This document shows, piece by piece, positions 1-25,457 of a stretch of DNA of 64,000 nt. The notes under the pieces are model-generated. The model did not search any database. It was given only the letters and a program-made list of their open reading frames with translations, and was not told where the DNA came from. Location of the stretch: assembly GCF_012911925.1 (NCBI RefSeq), contig NZ_JAAXKY010000008.1:1-64000 (forward strand). The letters are read 5' to 3'. Each line of letters opens with the position of its first letter. Positions within the stretch are counted from its first letter, which is position 1. The position numbers and the translations under genes are program-made. This DNA is from Pseudonocardia xinjiangensis. Lineage in GTDB: Bacteria; Actinomycetota; Actinomycetes; Mycobacteriales; Pseudonocardiaceae.

Positions 1-3000
1 ACTTCTGCAGGCACCCCCACCCCCGCGAGTCGCCCGTTTTCCGCGCCCGAGTCGCCCGGCCCGGACACACCCGTGCCCGCGAGTCGCCCGTTCTGCGCGG
101 GCGAGTCGCCCGGTTCGGGCAGCAGCTTCGCGAGAGCCGCGGGCGTGCGGTGACGCAGGACGTCGGCGGGGCTGACCCGCAGCCCGGCCCGGCGCAGCCG
201 GTTGACCAGCCCGATCGCGAGGATGCTGTCGCCCCCGACGGCCAGGAAGTCGTCGCCGGGCCCCACCTGGGGCAGGTTCAGCACCTCGGCGAACGCCGCG
301 CAGAGCTGTTCCTCCTGAGCGGACGTGGGAACGTCGCCGGACTCCGCGGCGGGGGCGGCGGCGAAGTCGGGGGCCGGCAGCGCGGCCCGGTCCAGCTTCC
401 CGTTCGCGGTCAGTGGCACCGATGCGATCGCCACCACGGCCGCGGGCACCATGTGCTCGGGCAGCCGGGCGCTCGCGTGGGCGCGCAGCGCGGTGCCGTC
501 GACGCCACCGGACACCCGCGGGACGACGTACGCGACGAGCCGCGCCGTGCCCCCGTCCCGTCGCGCCACCACCACGGCGTGCGCGACGTCGGGATGCTCG
601 GCCAGCACGGCCGCGATCTCTCCCGGCTCGATGCGGAACCCGCGGATCTTGACCTGCTCGTCGGAGCGGCCGAGGTACTCCAGCAGGCCGTCGGCCGACC
701 AGCGGGCGAGGTCACCGCTGCGGTAGAGCCGCGATCCCGGAGACCCGTACGGGTCGGCGACGAACCGGGACGCGGTCAGCGCCGCCTCGCCCATGTAGCC
801 GCGGGCGAGCTGCCCGCCGCCGACGTACATCTCCCCGACGACGCCGGGAGGCACCGGCTGCAGGTGCCGGTCGAGCACGAGCACGCGCAGGCCCGGTATC
901 GCCCGCCCCATCACGCTCCCGGCCCGGGCGGCCACCAGCTCCTCGTCGACCACCTGCGCGGTGACGTGCACGGTCGTCTCGGTGATCCCGTACATGTTCA
1001 CGAGCTGCGGCGAACCGGCCGGGTGCCGGGCGAACCACGCAGGGAGCTGCGTCAGGTCCAGGGCCTCACCGCCGAAGACGACACATCGCAGGGCGAGCGC
1101 GGAACCCGGCGTGACCGGGTCCGCGGAACCGGGCGACTCGCGGGGTGGAAACGGGCGACTCGCGGGGGTGATCGCGGCGAGCTGCGCGAACGCCGACGGG
1201 GTCTGGTTCAGCACCGTGACGCGCTCCCGCACCAGCAGCTCGCGGAACTGTTCCGGCGAGCGCGACACGGTGTGGTCGACGACGACGAGGCGGCCGCCGG
1301 TGCACAGCGGGCCCCACATCTCCCACACCGAGAAGTCGAACGACGCCGAGTGGAACATCGTCCACACGTCGCGGTCGCCGAAGTGGAACAGGCGGTCGGT
1401 CTGCCCGAGCAGCTGCACCACGTTCCCGTGCGGCACCACCACGCCCTTGGGACGCCCGGTCGAGCCGGACGTGTAGATCACGTAGGCGGGGTGGGCCGGC
1501 AACAGCGTGGCCGGTACGTCCAGCGGCTCGGCCGCGGCGAGCGCGCGGACGGTGGCCGGGTCGTCCAGCGCGAGCTGGGGCACCCGCGAGCCGGGCGGGA
1601 GCTGGGCCCGCACCGCCGAGGTCGTCAGCACGCACGCGGGCGCGGCGTCGGCGAGGGTGCGGGCGAGCCGCTCGGGCGGGTACCCCGGGTCGAGCGGCAC
1701 CGCGGCCCCACCCGCGCGGCTCACCGCGAGCAGGGCCGCCACCAGGTCGATCGAGCGCGGCAGCGCCACCCCGACCAGCGTCTCCGGTCCGACGCCACGC
1801 TCGGCGAGCAGGCGGGCCACCCGCCCCACCCGGTCGTCCAGCGCCGCGTAGGTCAGGTTCGTGTCCCCGTGGGTGAGCGCGACCGCGTCGGGACGGCGGC
1901 GCGCCTGCGCCGCGAAGAGTGCGGGCAGCGTCGACGGCGCGACCTCGGCCGGTTCCTCGACGGTGCTGGTGAGCAGCAGCTCGCGTTCCTCGGTGGTGAG
2001 CACGTCCACGTGCGCCACGGGTGCGTCCGGCCCGGAGGCGACGGCAGCGAGGACGCGCACCAGGCGGTCCAGCAGGACGCCGGCGGGCAGGTCGGGGGCG
2101 CCGCGCACCTGCAGCCGCAGCCGCAGCGCCGTCCCGGGCACCACGACCAGCGTCACGGGGTAGTGGGTGGCGTCGTGGCCCGACAGTCCCGTCACCTCGA
2201 GGCCGCTGCCCCGGGCCGCCGCGGCGAGCGCGTCGGCGTCGAGCGGGTAGGACTCCACGACGACCAGCGAGTCGAAGAGGTCTCCCTGCCCGGCGGCCGC
2301 CTGGATCTCGGCCAGGCCCAGGTGCTCGTGGTCCAGCAGCCCGGTTCGGCGGTCCTGCAGGTCCCTGGCGAGGTCGGCGAGCGGCTGCGCCGGGTGGAGA
2401 CGGGCCCGCACCGGGACCGTGGTGATGGCCGGTCCGACCAGCGTCTCGACGGCGTCGAGCTCGGGGGGCCGCACGGCGGCGGTGGTGCCGAACACGACGT
2501 CGTCGCGGCCGGTGAGCCGGCCGAGGAGCACCGCCCACGCGGCCTGCACCAGGGTGCTCGTGGTGAGCCCGCGGGCGCGCCCGAGGCCCTCCAGCGCGGC
2601 GGTGACGGTGTCCGGGACCTCGATCTCCGCCTGCTCGGGCTCGTCCGCGGTGGGTGCCGGCACCAGGAACGTCGGCCCCTCGATGCCGGCGAGCGCCTGT
2701 GCCCACGCGGCACGTGCCGCTGCCGTGTCACGCTCGGCGAACCACTGCAACAGCGCGGTGAAGGGCACAACCGGCTCGGACGCCTGCTCGTCGAGGGCGG
2801 CGAGCAGCTCCCGCAGCAGTACCGGCATCGACCACCCGTCGAGCAGCAGGTGGTGGGCGGTGACCGCCAGCCGGGCGGTCGCTCCGGTGCGGACCAGCAG
2901 GATGCGCAGCAGCGGCGGAGCGGCCAGGTCGAACGGCACCCGCCGCTCGGCGGCGAGCAACCGGTCGGCCTCGTCGCGGTCGCCGGCCTCGACGACGGTG

Positions 3001-23974: not shown

Positions 23975-24534
23975 TCATGCGTCCTCCCCGGGCAGCAGCA
24001 CGGGTTTGGTGGCGGTGCCGTTCCTCATCATGTCTGCAGCGCCTTCGACCTCGCCCAGCGCGAACGTGGTGACGAGCTTCACGACCGGCAGGCGGCCGGT
24101 GGCGACGAGCGCGGCAAGGTCGGGCAGGAAGGTGGGCGGGTTGCTGCGGCCTTCCACGACCCCGAAGATCCGCTTGCTGTTGTTGACCACGTCGGCCACG
24201 TCGATGGGTGCGGTGGTGCCGAACGGTGGCACCCCGACCACCGCAGCTGACCCGCCGCCGCGCAGGCTCGTGATGGCCTGGACCAGCACCGCCGGCACCC
24301 CGCTGCTCTCGACGACGTGCCCGGCGCCGCCGCCGGTGAGGTCTCTGATCGCCTCGACCGGGTCGGCGGTGCGGGAGCTGACGACGCTGGTCGCGCCGAG
24401 CTCACGAGCCAGCTCCCCACCGCCTCGACCCGCACCAGCACCTCGTCCGGGCGGGGGTCGTCGAGCACCAGCGCGCGACGGGCGAACGGCGCCCCGGCCG
24501 ATGCGACAGCCATCGCGGAGACGGCCGTGGGCAT
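23975..24534 (-). pseudogene. Zinc-type alcohol dehydrogenase with internal deletion and frameshift
   Basis: The first 40 codons (from ATG 24534, reading through DDPRPDEVLVRVEAVG) are the start of an MDR-family alcohol dehydrogenase. In another frame the last 150 codons (ELARELGATSVV ... VVGVPPFGTTAPIDV ... MRNGTATKPVLLP) are its C-terminus. About 170 residues in between, including the zinc ligands and most of the NAD fold, are missing, and the junction near 24412 is out of frame. The remaining parts would belong to an aryl-alcohol-type dehydrogenase. Confidence 0.85.
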
Positions 24535-24600
24535 CAGGCGGCGGCCTCGACGACGGCCGCGATTGCCTGGATCTCCATCGTGAGGTCGGAGGCGTCGCCC
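24534..24600 (-). pseudogene. C-terminal remnant of a gene upstream of the dehydrogenase
   Basis: An open frame ending DLTMEIQAIAAVVEAAA stops in a TGA that overlaps the dehydrogenase ATG (ATGA), as in a former operon. Upstream of about codon 20 the sequence turns into the 22-bp repeat array. The parent enzyme cannot be identified from so short a piece. Confidence 0.4.
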
Positions 24601-24701
24601 CGCGAGTAGCCCGTTTCGTGCGCGCGAGTCGCCCGACCCAGCCCCGCGAGTCGCCCGACCCAGCCCCGCGAGTCGCCCGACCCGACCGCGCGAGTCGCCC
24701 G
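24601..24701. repeat. Five-unit tandem array with exact 22-bp period
   Basis: The 13-mer CGCGAGTCGCCCG starts at 24601 (one mismatch), 24623, 24645, 24667 and 24689, each exactly 22 bases apart. The 9-base spacers vary. The core GCGAGTCGC is a perfect odd-length palindrome. A further single copy lies at 24839. The array borders the dehydrogenase pseudogene. Confidence 0.9.
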
Positions 24702-24753
24702 ATCCGGTCAGGCGGGGCGGCCGGTCGCGCGGGTCGTACGCCCCGCCCGCACG

Positions 24754-24833
24754 GGGCCCGTTGATCGCTGCGAGACCCGCGTCTCAGCCCCCTGACGGGC
24801 GAAACCACGGATCTCGCGGCGACCAACGGGCCC
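24754..24833. repeat. Long inverted repeat next to the array
   Basis: Arms of 22 bases at 24754-24775 and 24812-24833 are complementary with two mismatches (GGGCCCGTTG... and ...CAACGGGCCC), around a 36-base loop. It looks like a dispersed palindromic (REP or MITE-like) element. Confidence 0.75.
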
Positions 24834-24992
24834 ACACCCGCGAGTCGCCCCGTTCCCGCCCGCGGGGTCAAGGACTCCGGTCCGGGTCGCGAGCTCGGAC
24901 CGGAGGGGCTCGTGGCCTATCAAGCTGTGCAGTCGGTCTACCTTCGGGCGTGACTGTTGCCGTCCCGGGCCCTTCGACGTGAGGATCTCCCG

Positions 24993-25457
24993 ATGAGCAG
25001 CATCCCCGTACCGCCCCTCGACCGTCGGCAGGCTGCCACTGCCGTGCTCGCCGCGAAGAAGCGCACCGGTGTGCGCTGGGCCGACCTCGGCAAGGCGATC
25101 GGCATGTCCACCGAGTGGACCACCGCGGCCCTGCTCGGCCAGCACCCGCTGACCGATGAGCAGGCCCGCACCCTCGGCTCCGTGCTGGAGCTCGACCCCG
25201 ACGTCGTCGAGGCGCTGACCCTGCCGCCCGTCCGCGGCAAGGACGTCGCCGACACGTCCGAGCCGCTGGTCTACCGGCTGCAGGAGATGGTCCAGGTCTA
25301 CGGCAGCACGATCCACGAGCTCGTCCGTGAGGAGTTCGGGGACGGAATCGTCAGCGCCATCGACTTCGAGTTCGAACTCGAACGGGTGCCCGACCCGAAG
25401 GGCGACCGCGTCCGTATCACGCTGAACGGGAAGTTCCTGCCCTACCGCACCTGGTAA
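24993..25457 (+). CDS. cynS: Cyanate hydratase (cyanase)
   Basis: The 154-residue protein decomposes cyanate with bicarbonate to ammonia and carbon dioxide in the cytoplasm. The N-terminal helical domain (residues 10-80) is followed by the compact C-terminal catalytic domain with YRLQEMVQVYG (catalytic Arg and Glu near 93 and 96) and DGIVSAIDFEF (catalytic Ser near 120). Length and ending (LNGKFLPY) fit the family. ATG at 24993 follows GAGGATC. No cynT or cynX is near; the next gene on the same strand is formate dehydrogenase, 319 bases away. Confidence 0.96.
   Translation: MSSIPVPPLDRRQAATAVLAAKKRTGVRWADLGKAIGMSTEWTTAALLGQHPLTDEQARTLGSVLELDPDVVEALTLPPVRGKDVADTSEPLVYRLQEMVQVYGSTIHELVREEFGDGIVSAIDFEFELERVPDPKGDRVRITLNGKFLPYRTW

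Follow-up and report, generated by a model that had tools for sequence, protein, structure and literature searches.

Phased 22-bp repeat arrays with a genome-specific code lie at gene ends in Pseudonocardia xinjiangensis and related actinobacteria

INTRODUCTION

Actinobacteria have few classical U-tract terminators. Tandem, polar protein sites that end transcription are known from the Sal-box arrays that follow mammalian rRNA genes and are bound by TTF-I, and short conserved cores repeated with variable spacers are known from two intergenic elements, staphylococcal STAR and cyanobacterial STRR. The arrays described here, found in Pseudonocardia xinjiangensis, have the tandem polar layout behind a gene in common with the Sal boxes, which are eukaryotic and serve one gene family (no sequence relation is claimed). 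With STAR and STRR they have in common the short core repeated with variable spacers; we know of no exact helical spacing, genome-specific code, or sense orientation behind stop codons in those two elements.

The closest working analogy for the arrays is the stoperator of cluster A mycobacteriophages. Two papers describe stoperators as asymmetric 13-base sites, present in more than 20 copies per genome and many of them in short intergenic spaces, whose orientation correlates with transcription and whose motif and repressor vary together among relatives; the bound protein is proposed to halt elongation, which fails when the site is reversed (PMC9283540, PMC6550527). The stoperators of L5, Bxb1, and TipsytheTRex resemble the arrays in the asymmetry of the sites and in a motif that differs between genomes, but they are spread over a phage genome, whereas the sites reported here stand by the hundreds in 22-bp tandem arrays on a host chromosome.

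REP elements (see PMC3116915 and PMC3733652) offer a second comparison. They are short, species-specific extragenic repeats that occur by the hundreds at gene ends and in convergent gaps. REP, BIME, and REPIN elements are like the arrays in their extragenic place, their many copies, and their species-specific sequence. The array unit differs from REP and REPIN in being mostly non-palindromic and in being repeated head to tail at exactly 22 bp, with minus-plus pairs of arrays in Pseudonocardia nigra as the exception. A literature search by sequence strings and topics, which covered one paper library without bioRxiv preprints as such, found no description of arrays of this kind, and the repeat type seems new to that search; even if merely selfish, the arrays would thus be an extragenic repeat type for which the search found no account.

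RESULTS AND DISCUSSION

The DNA analyzed here (the window) is a 64,000-nucleotide stretch of the P. xinjiangensis genome, which is assembled as 7.76 Mb in 308 contigs. Its main array, on the plus strand at positions 24601..24710, consists of five 22-bp units, each made up of CGCGAGTC, the code GCCC, and a variable part. The initial annotation had reported five copies of a 13-mer, and five sites do start at 24601, 24623, 24645, 24667, and 24689; four of them match CGCGAGTCGCCCG exactly, while the first reads CGCGAGTAGCCCG, with one mismatch. The steps are 22, 22, 22, and 22 bases, which is the exact period that had been given, and the 9-base spacers between the sites vary as described (TTTCGTGCG, ACCCAGCCC twice, and ACCCGACCG). 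Tandem Repeats Finder returned a period of 22 with 3.6 copies.

Two further arrays and a single unit lie in the same window. The second array (24..121, plus strand) has sites at 24, 46, 78, and 100, those at 46 and 100 with one mismatch each, in steps of 22, 32, and 22, its sites spanning 24-112; the third (1121..1164, minus strand) consists of two exact units, with sites spanning 1130-1164. The single unit, CGCGAGTCGCCCC, stands at 24839..24851 on the plus strand, 150 bp past the last site of the main array. Eight exact 13-mers occur in the window, spread over the three arrays; with up to two mismatches allowed, the 13-mer was not enriched there (25 found versus 25.2 expected), the enrichment being confined to exact copies.

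The predicted neighbors of the main array are 302 and 333 bp away and divergent, one of them being a gene remnant, and no sense stop codon precedes the array. The remnant (23975..24534, minus strand) belongs to a zinc-type alcohol dehydrogenase whose reading frame is broken, with the array on its 5' side. A cyanase (cyanate lyase) gene lies 3' of the array (24957..25457, plus strand), its open reading frame beginning with a TTG at 24957 and containing an ATG at 24993. On the minus strand of 23975-24600, the remnant is preceded by the end of another reading frame (MEIQAIAAVVEAAA followed by a stop), perhaps a deletion scar next to the array. Rfam covariance models run on the window at gathering thresholds matched tRNA only, with no RNA family at the array.

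Counted genome-wide, exact copies of the 13-mer number 401 (182 + 219), compared with 4 occurrences (3 + 1) of the reversed pattern. A 22-bp distance is frequent among the places listed, several of which lie at contig ends. Since several contigs end inside arrays, the true arrays may exceed their assembled length, and the arrays themselves seem to break assemblies. Distances were then counted in 363 kb of P. xinjiangensis sequence, from each exact core to every same-strand core with at most one mismatch no more than 70 bp away; in line with the test set by the initial annotation, they cluster at 22 (62 cases) and its multiples 44 (34) and 66 (19), with three others. In arrays of this genome picked with at most three mismatches, unit positions 3-12 are conserved at 97-100%, and positions 14-22 are weakly biased, with TTC around 15-17. 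The spacers vary far more than the core but are not free, with pyrimidines/TTC weakly preferred and some bias peculiar to the spacers.

Spacer identity in this genome is 0.64 within arrays and 0.49 between arrays, and spacers are identical in 13/87 within-array pairs. A spacer is common to only 4 of 666 pairs of arrays, and 61 of 75 spacers are distinct, indicating that the arrays were not recently copied from each other; on this ground, a recent copy-and-paste origin of entire arrays was rejected. Among neighboring GCGAGTC sites in six locus sets, 503 are 22 bp apart, compared with 13 at 19-25 bp other than 22 (12 of which are at 21 bp), and in 500 unit pairs positions 9-22 accumulated 1,826 differences while anchor and spacing held. 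Outside the anchor, then, substitutions are tolerated and length changes are rare. Steps of 21 bp were seen in a four-unit array of genome G181 at rdgB (three of three steps) and for the 13-mer itself in another genus, g14 (G084:C45:252561-252615 and G106:C5:178026-178059).

Twenty-two base pairs is about two helical turns. Spacing that clusters at 22 and spacers that vary over a constant core favor a helically phased binding array over neutral tandem expansion, and to this extent the initial suggestion of a multi-site binding array stands, as a candidate site only; the spacers are not free, and the palindrome on which it also drew is not general. In P. xinjiangensis, GCGAGTCGC is its own reverse complement save for the central base, as had been noted, and across genomes it is present only where the code starts with GC. 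Most of the codes listed are non-palindromic, and a palindromic operator was rejected as a general feature.

Among 62 genomes of the genus, pairs of the 13-mer at 22 bp number 249 in P. xinjiangensis, 100 in P. nigra (G171), 61 in the metagenome-assembled genome RYN_120 (G189), and 1 each in G152 and Pseudonocardia alaniniphila (G153). A shorter pattern, CGAGTC three times in a row at a 22-bp period, matched 65/390 genomes of the family, the genus accounting for 41 of these; 48 genomes had at least 10 matches, and reversed controls were near zero in most genomes. Array-positive genomes include G150, G158, G163-G166, G168, G171, G191, G200, and G203, whereas P. alaniniphila had 1 match and G154, G157, G159, G162, G173, G176, and G184 had 0. 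In a sample of the class it matched 10/394 genomes, including P. xinjiangensis and one (G515) in which it is a simple repeat, and in a second family, f29, it matched 20/197 genomes from 6/26 genera, 6 of them with at least 10 matches. Arrays with the same period are also present in assemblies of one or two contigs (G166 and G150).

What follows the anchor depends on the genome. The bases after CGAGTC are GCCC in P. xinjiangensis and P. nigra DSM 104088, GTAC in G031, CAAC in G148, GAAC in G247, mostly CCAC in G281, GCAC in G081, GCTG and related in G150, and GGGA and related in G164; codes are mixed within G166, G248, and G328. Across 52 genomes, in which the invariance of the anchor hexamer is by construction of the search, positions 9-12 carry less information than the anchor, and a weak GTTC and GG preference is left in positions 13-19. 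The array unit is thus asymmetric, and its code differs between genomes. In arrays of G164 (C3:307559-307696 and C12:211147-211284), a second type of unit (GCGC TCTGGG) precedes units of the GCGA or GGGA types that keep to the same 22-bp phase. No match to the two-core pattern was found in viral contigs, and a phage or viral origin of the arrays was rejected.

The strongest clue to array function, absent from the first reading, is position and orientation relative to genes. Genes were called with a home-made codon-score predictor trained on P. xinjiangensis loci rather than taken from annotation. In six locus sets, the sixth of which comprises 45 loci, one per genome, 176 of 218 arrays could be placed; left out were 8 that fell within predicted genes and 34 located at the ends of loci, and gaps of at least 60 bp without an array served as background. 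The P. nigra and RYN_120 loci are those with an exact two-site pattern, among the matches listed, and the G150 and G164 stretches were chosen for holding arrays, so that these four sets are enriched for perfect arrays. With the P. nigra and RYN_120 loci taken from among the matches listed, convergent gaps hold 81/176 placed arrays compared with 46/435 background gaps (odds ratio, 7.2), a likeness to gyrase-bound BIME-2 elements; divergent gaps hold 11/176 compared with 159/435, and the remaining 84/176 arrays lie in codirectional gaps.

In most sets the arrays are also oriented. Where the gene 5' of an array runs in the direction of the array (P. nigra and RYN_120 again among the matches listed), its stop codon is no more than 30 bp from the 5' end of the array in 86/130 cases; in the mirror case, an antisense stop is as close to the 3' end in 41/116 (Fisher P = 1.9e-6). 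This polarity is strong in RYN_120 (16/18 versus 1/16, among the matches listed), in G150 (12/16 versus 4/16), and in the single loci from other genomes (25/34 versus 7/28). It is weaker in P. xinjiangensis (10/11 versus 6/11; rank test on distances, P = 0.23) and absent from P. nigra (13/32 versus 16/30, among the matches listed) and G164 (10/19 versus 7/15). In the second family it was 13/17 versus 3/13 in 18 of 20 loci and 13/18 versus 4/14 once the remaining two, one divergent and one convergent, were added; these counts keep two divergent rows that are an 11-bp simple repeat (locus L271 of genome G515), and loci L140 and L141 are counted both here and in the six sets. Codirectional gaps hold 12/23 arrays of the second family. 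A layout that recurs in G150 is a plus-strand gene, a plus-strand array, a minus-strand array, and a minus-strand gene (L252, L253, L254, and L257).

Convergent gaps with an array are poor in other hairpins. In nine genomes, a stem of 9 bp or more beyond the array itself was found in 3/49 convergent gaps with an array and in 26/82 without; these counts omit P. alaniniphila, which has 0 such gaps with an array and 10 without one, of which 1 contains a stem. When gaps were matched for a free length of 40-160 bases, the figures were 3/29 and 17/53 (P = 0.033). RYN_120 does not show the contrast, with stems in 1/7 gaps with an array and 0/7 without.

A constant anchor, two-turn spacing, substitutions that are tolerated where length changes are rare, and a genome-specific code are best fitted by a sequence-specific DNA-binding protein, and a role in stopping or insulating transcription is suggested by the orientation, the place behind stop codons, the convergent enrichment, and the shortage of hairpins. 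Our leading but tentative reading is that the window array is one of many asymmetric, phased, putative protein-binding arrays across the chromosome, whose most likely role would be to stop or insulate transcription at gene ends. A putative DNA-binding protein would recognize CGCGAGTC together with a neighboring code that has diverged between species, and would bind side by side every 22 bp and so coat the array. Its specificity would drift, leaving a code largely common within one genome and different in the next. Lying mostly between convergent genes or in codirectional gaps and, in most of the sets, beginning just past a stop codon in sense orientation, the coated array would most likely act as a polar roadblock that stops or insulates transcription in place of a hairpin terminator.

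Several observations count against this model. The window array follows no sense stop, and P. nigra and G164 lack polarity; the length-matched hairpin contrast reaches only P = 0.033, and RYN_120 does not show it; one of four rdgB arrays (G181) has 21-bp steps, and three genomes mix their codes. The pattern as a whole suggests a rapidly evolving protein, as yet undescribed, with which genes are marked or ended. If so, phased, oriented, species-coded arrays behind genes would be a testable candidate for how actinobacterial genes end, and a natural laboratory for studying how a DNA-binding protein changes specificity along with its hundreds of sites.

A more far-reaching version, less likely than not in our view and modeled on the stoperator analogy, is that a dedicated factor and its sites change specificity together, such that equivalent genes in closely related species bear incompatible codes; the arrays would then be a host counterpart of phage stoperators, providing termination or insulation chromosome-wide. 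The repressor family phrog_357 was not found in P. xinjiangensis and matched 1/62 Pseudonocardia genomes (G182, which is without arrays) and 0/14 named control genomes; a single-sequence query with the Bxb1 repressor, run without a positive control, gave no match. A stoperator-type repressor of this family is accordingly not supported, and despite the like layout we do not class the arrays as stoperators, because the family was not found.

Equivalent loci show how quickly arrays come and go. Contig C22 of P. xinjiangensis is largely colinear with P. alaniniphila. Four of its five arrays have no counterpart array there (one of the four also lacks flanking DNA), and the fifth is matched by a decayed copy of two units in which 1 bp is deleted and the outer unit is mutated. 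The triple pattern occurs once in the P. alaniniphila genome, at C39:206459, where C22 has no matching DNA. RYN_120 has an empty site opposite a P. nigra array, and at other loci an array position is common to two species. Between G164 and G165, most arrays are identical among the matches listed in both, so this pair is uninformative about array evolution.

At the 3' end of Ham1/rdgB (Pfam PF01725), 30 loci were compared, 7 without a readable gene end and one (G175) with only 31 bases, and arrays were found in 4/22 readable species, which indicates that any single site is dispensable. The codes of the four are GCCC in P. xinjiangensis, GCGG in G161, GGGG in G181 (the array with 21-bp steps), and a mixture with TTGC and CGAC in G166; GCGG in G161 and TTGC/CGAC in G166 were each found again at a distant locus of their own genome (L116 and L120). 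Several species without an rdgB array carry hairpin repeats there instead, as judged by eye. Also by eye, the gap in G168, G164, G165, G203, and G191 (L153-L155, L158, and L163) holds another palindromic repeat, approximately CGCGTT(R)TGGA(R)CCA(Y)(R)ACGCG.

This turnover bears on a serious rival, which we regard as a real possibility: that the arrays are selfish or non-functional REP-like repeats that expand by slippage and get lost, convergent gaps and the space behind stops being the least harmful places and hence tolerated insertion sites. The missing counterparts of C22 arrays, the empty RYN_120 site, the restriction of arrays to part of the genus, and the other palindromic repeats that occupy the same gaps all agree with it, and REPs avoid promoters too. 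Recent copying should, however, leave common spacers, and spacers are rarely common to two arrays and mostly distinct while cores are nearly invariant; rare length changes and, in most sets, sense polarity after stops are not expected of neutral debris. RAYT transposases belong to the Y1_Tnp family. Y1_Tnp (PF01797) was detected in 5/62 genomes of the genus and in 5/14 named control genomes, but not in P. xinjiangensis, P. nigra, or RYN_120, and REP transposition by a RAYT was rejected for these three.

Arrays may also seed inversions, for which P. nigra provides one case. Its gene matching L081:19248-19997 of P. xinjiangensis is inverted and flanked on each side by arrays or array-like repeats (L066 5200-6520 versus L081 19080-20000), as if opposed arrays had recombined.

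An improbable alternative is that the arrays act in RNA, as 3' untranslated elements that fold or bind an RNA-binding protein once transcribed and protect or process the mRNA 3' end. Sense orientation just past stop codons in most sets would suit this, and compared with dinucleotide shuffles, the array strand shows somewhat better folding (mean z, -1.28 in P. xinjiangensis, -2.04 in P. nigra, and -1.76 in RYN_120). Minus-plus pairs in P. nigra, of which 18 have core centers 17-31 bp apart (12 of them 18-20), would form strong RNA stems. Spacer letters, on the other hand, contribute on average nothing to the folding energy (mean z, -0.75 to 0.69 versus spacer-letter shuffles, with 21-22 arrays in each set), and the position pairs of highest mutual information form no helix-like pattern; with neither a spacer contribution nor a sign of pairing covariation, spacer-dependent RNA structure was rejected. 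The core is self-complementary for some codes only, and double-stranded DNA is a better match for an exact two-turn step. A Rho utilization site, which calls for a C-rich, G-poor transcript, was likewise rejected, given that C does not consistently exceed G in the array sense strand (C 0.43 and G 0.34 in P. xinjiangensis, 0.45 and 0.30 in RYN_120, and 0.32 and 0.40 in G164).

Less probable still are BIME-like chromosome-structure sites, bound for instance by gyrase or by a protein of the nucleoid, which would take up supercoils where genes converge. The strong convergent enrichment speaks for them; against them, a housekeeping binder needs no genome-specific code, the sites are nearly missing from the close relative P. 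alaniniphila, and codirectional gaps hold many arrays in the six sets and in the second family alike. Plain unconstrained tandem expansion or an assembly artifact, to which the identical within-array spacers and the contigs ending in arrays might point, is very unlikely given the many loci, the conserved core, the diverged spacers, and the same period in many assemblies, including G166 and G150.

A separate element occupies the gap of the main array. Adjoining the array at 24754..24833 (no strand assigned) is an imperfect inverted repeat with 37-nt arms that are 78% complementary. Imperfect inverted repeats of this GATCG..CGAGA..TCTCG..GATC type were also seen beside or between arrays at L091 (around 9811) and L073 (around 3051), and a regular expression for the type matched twice in 381 kb of P. 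xinjiangensis sequence. It is possibly a second extragenic repeat family. In P. alaniniphila, a gap holds a similar hairpin in place of the P. xinjiangensis array at C22:65353.
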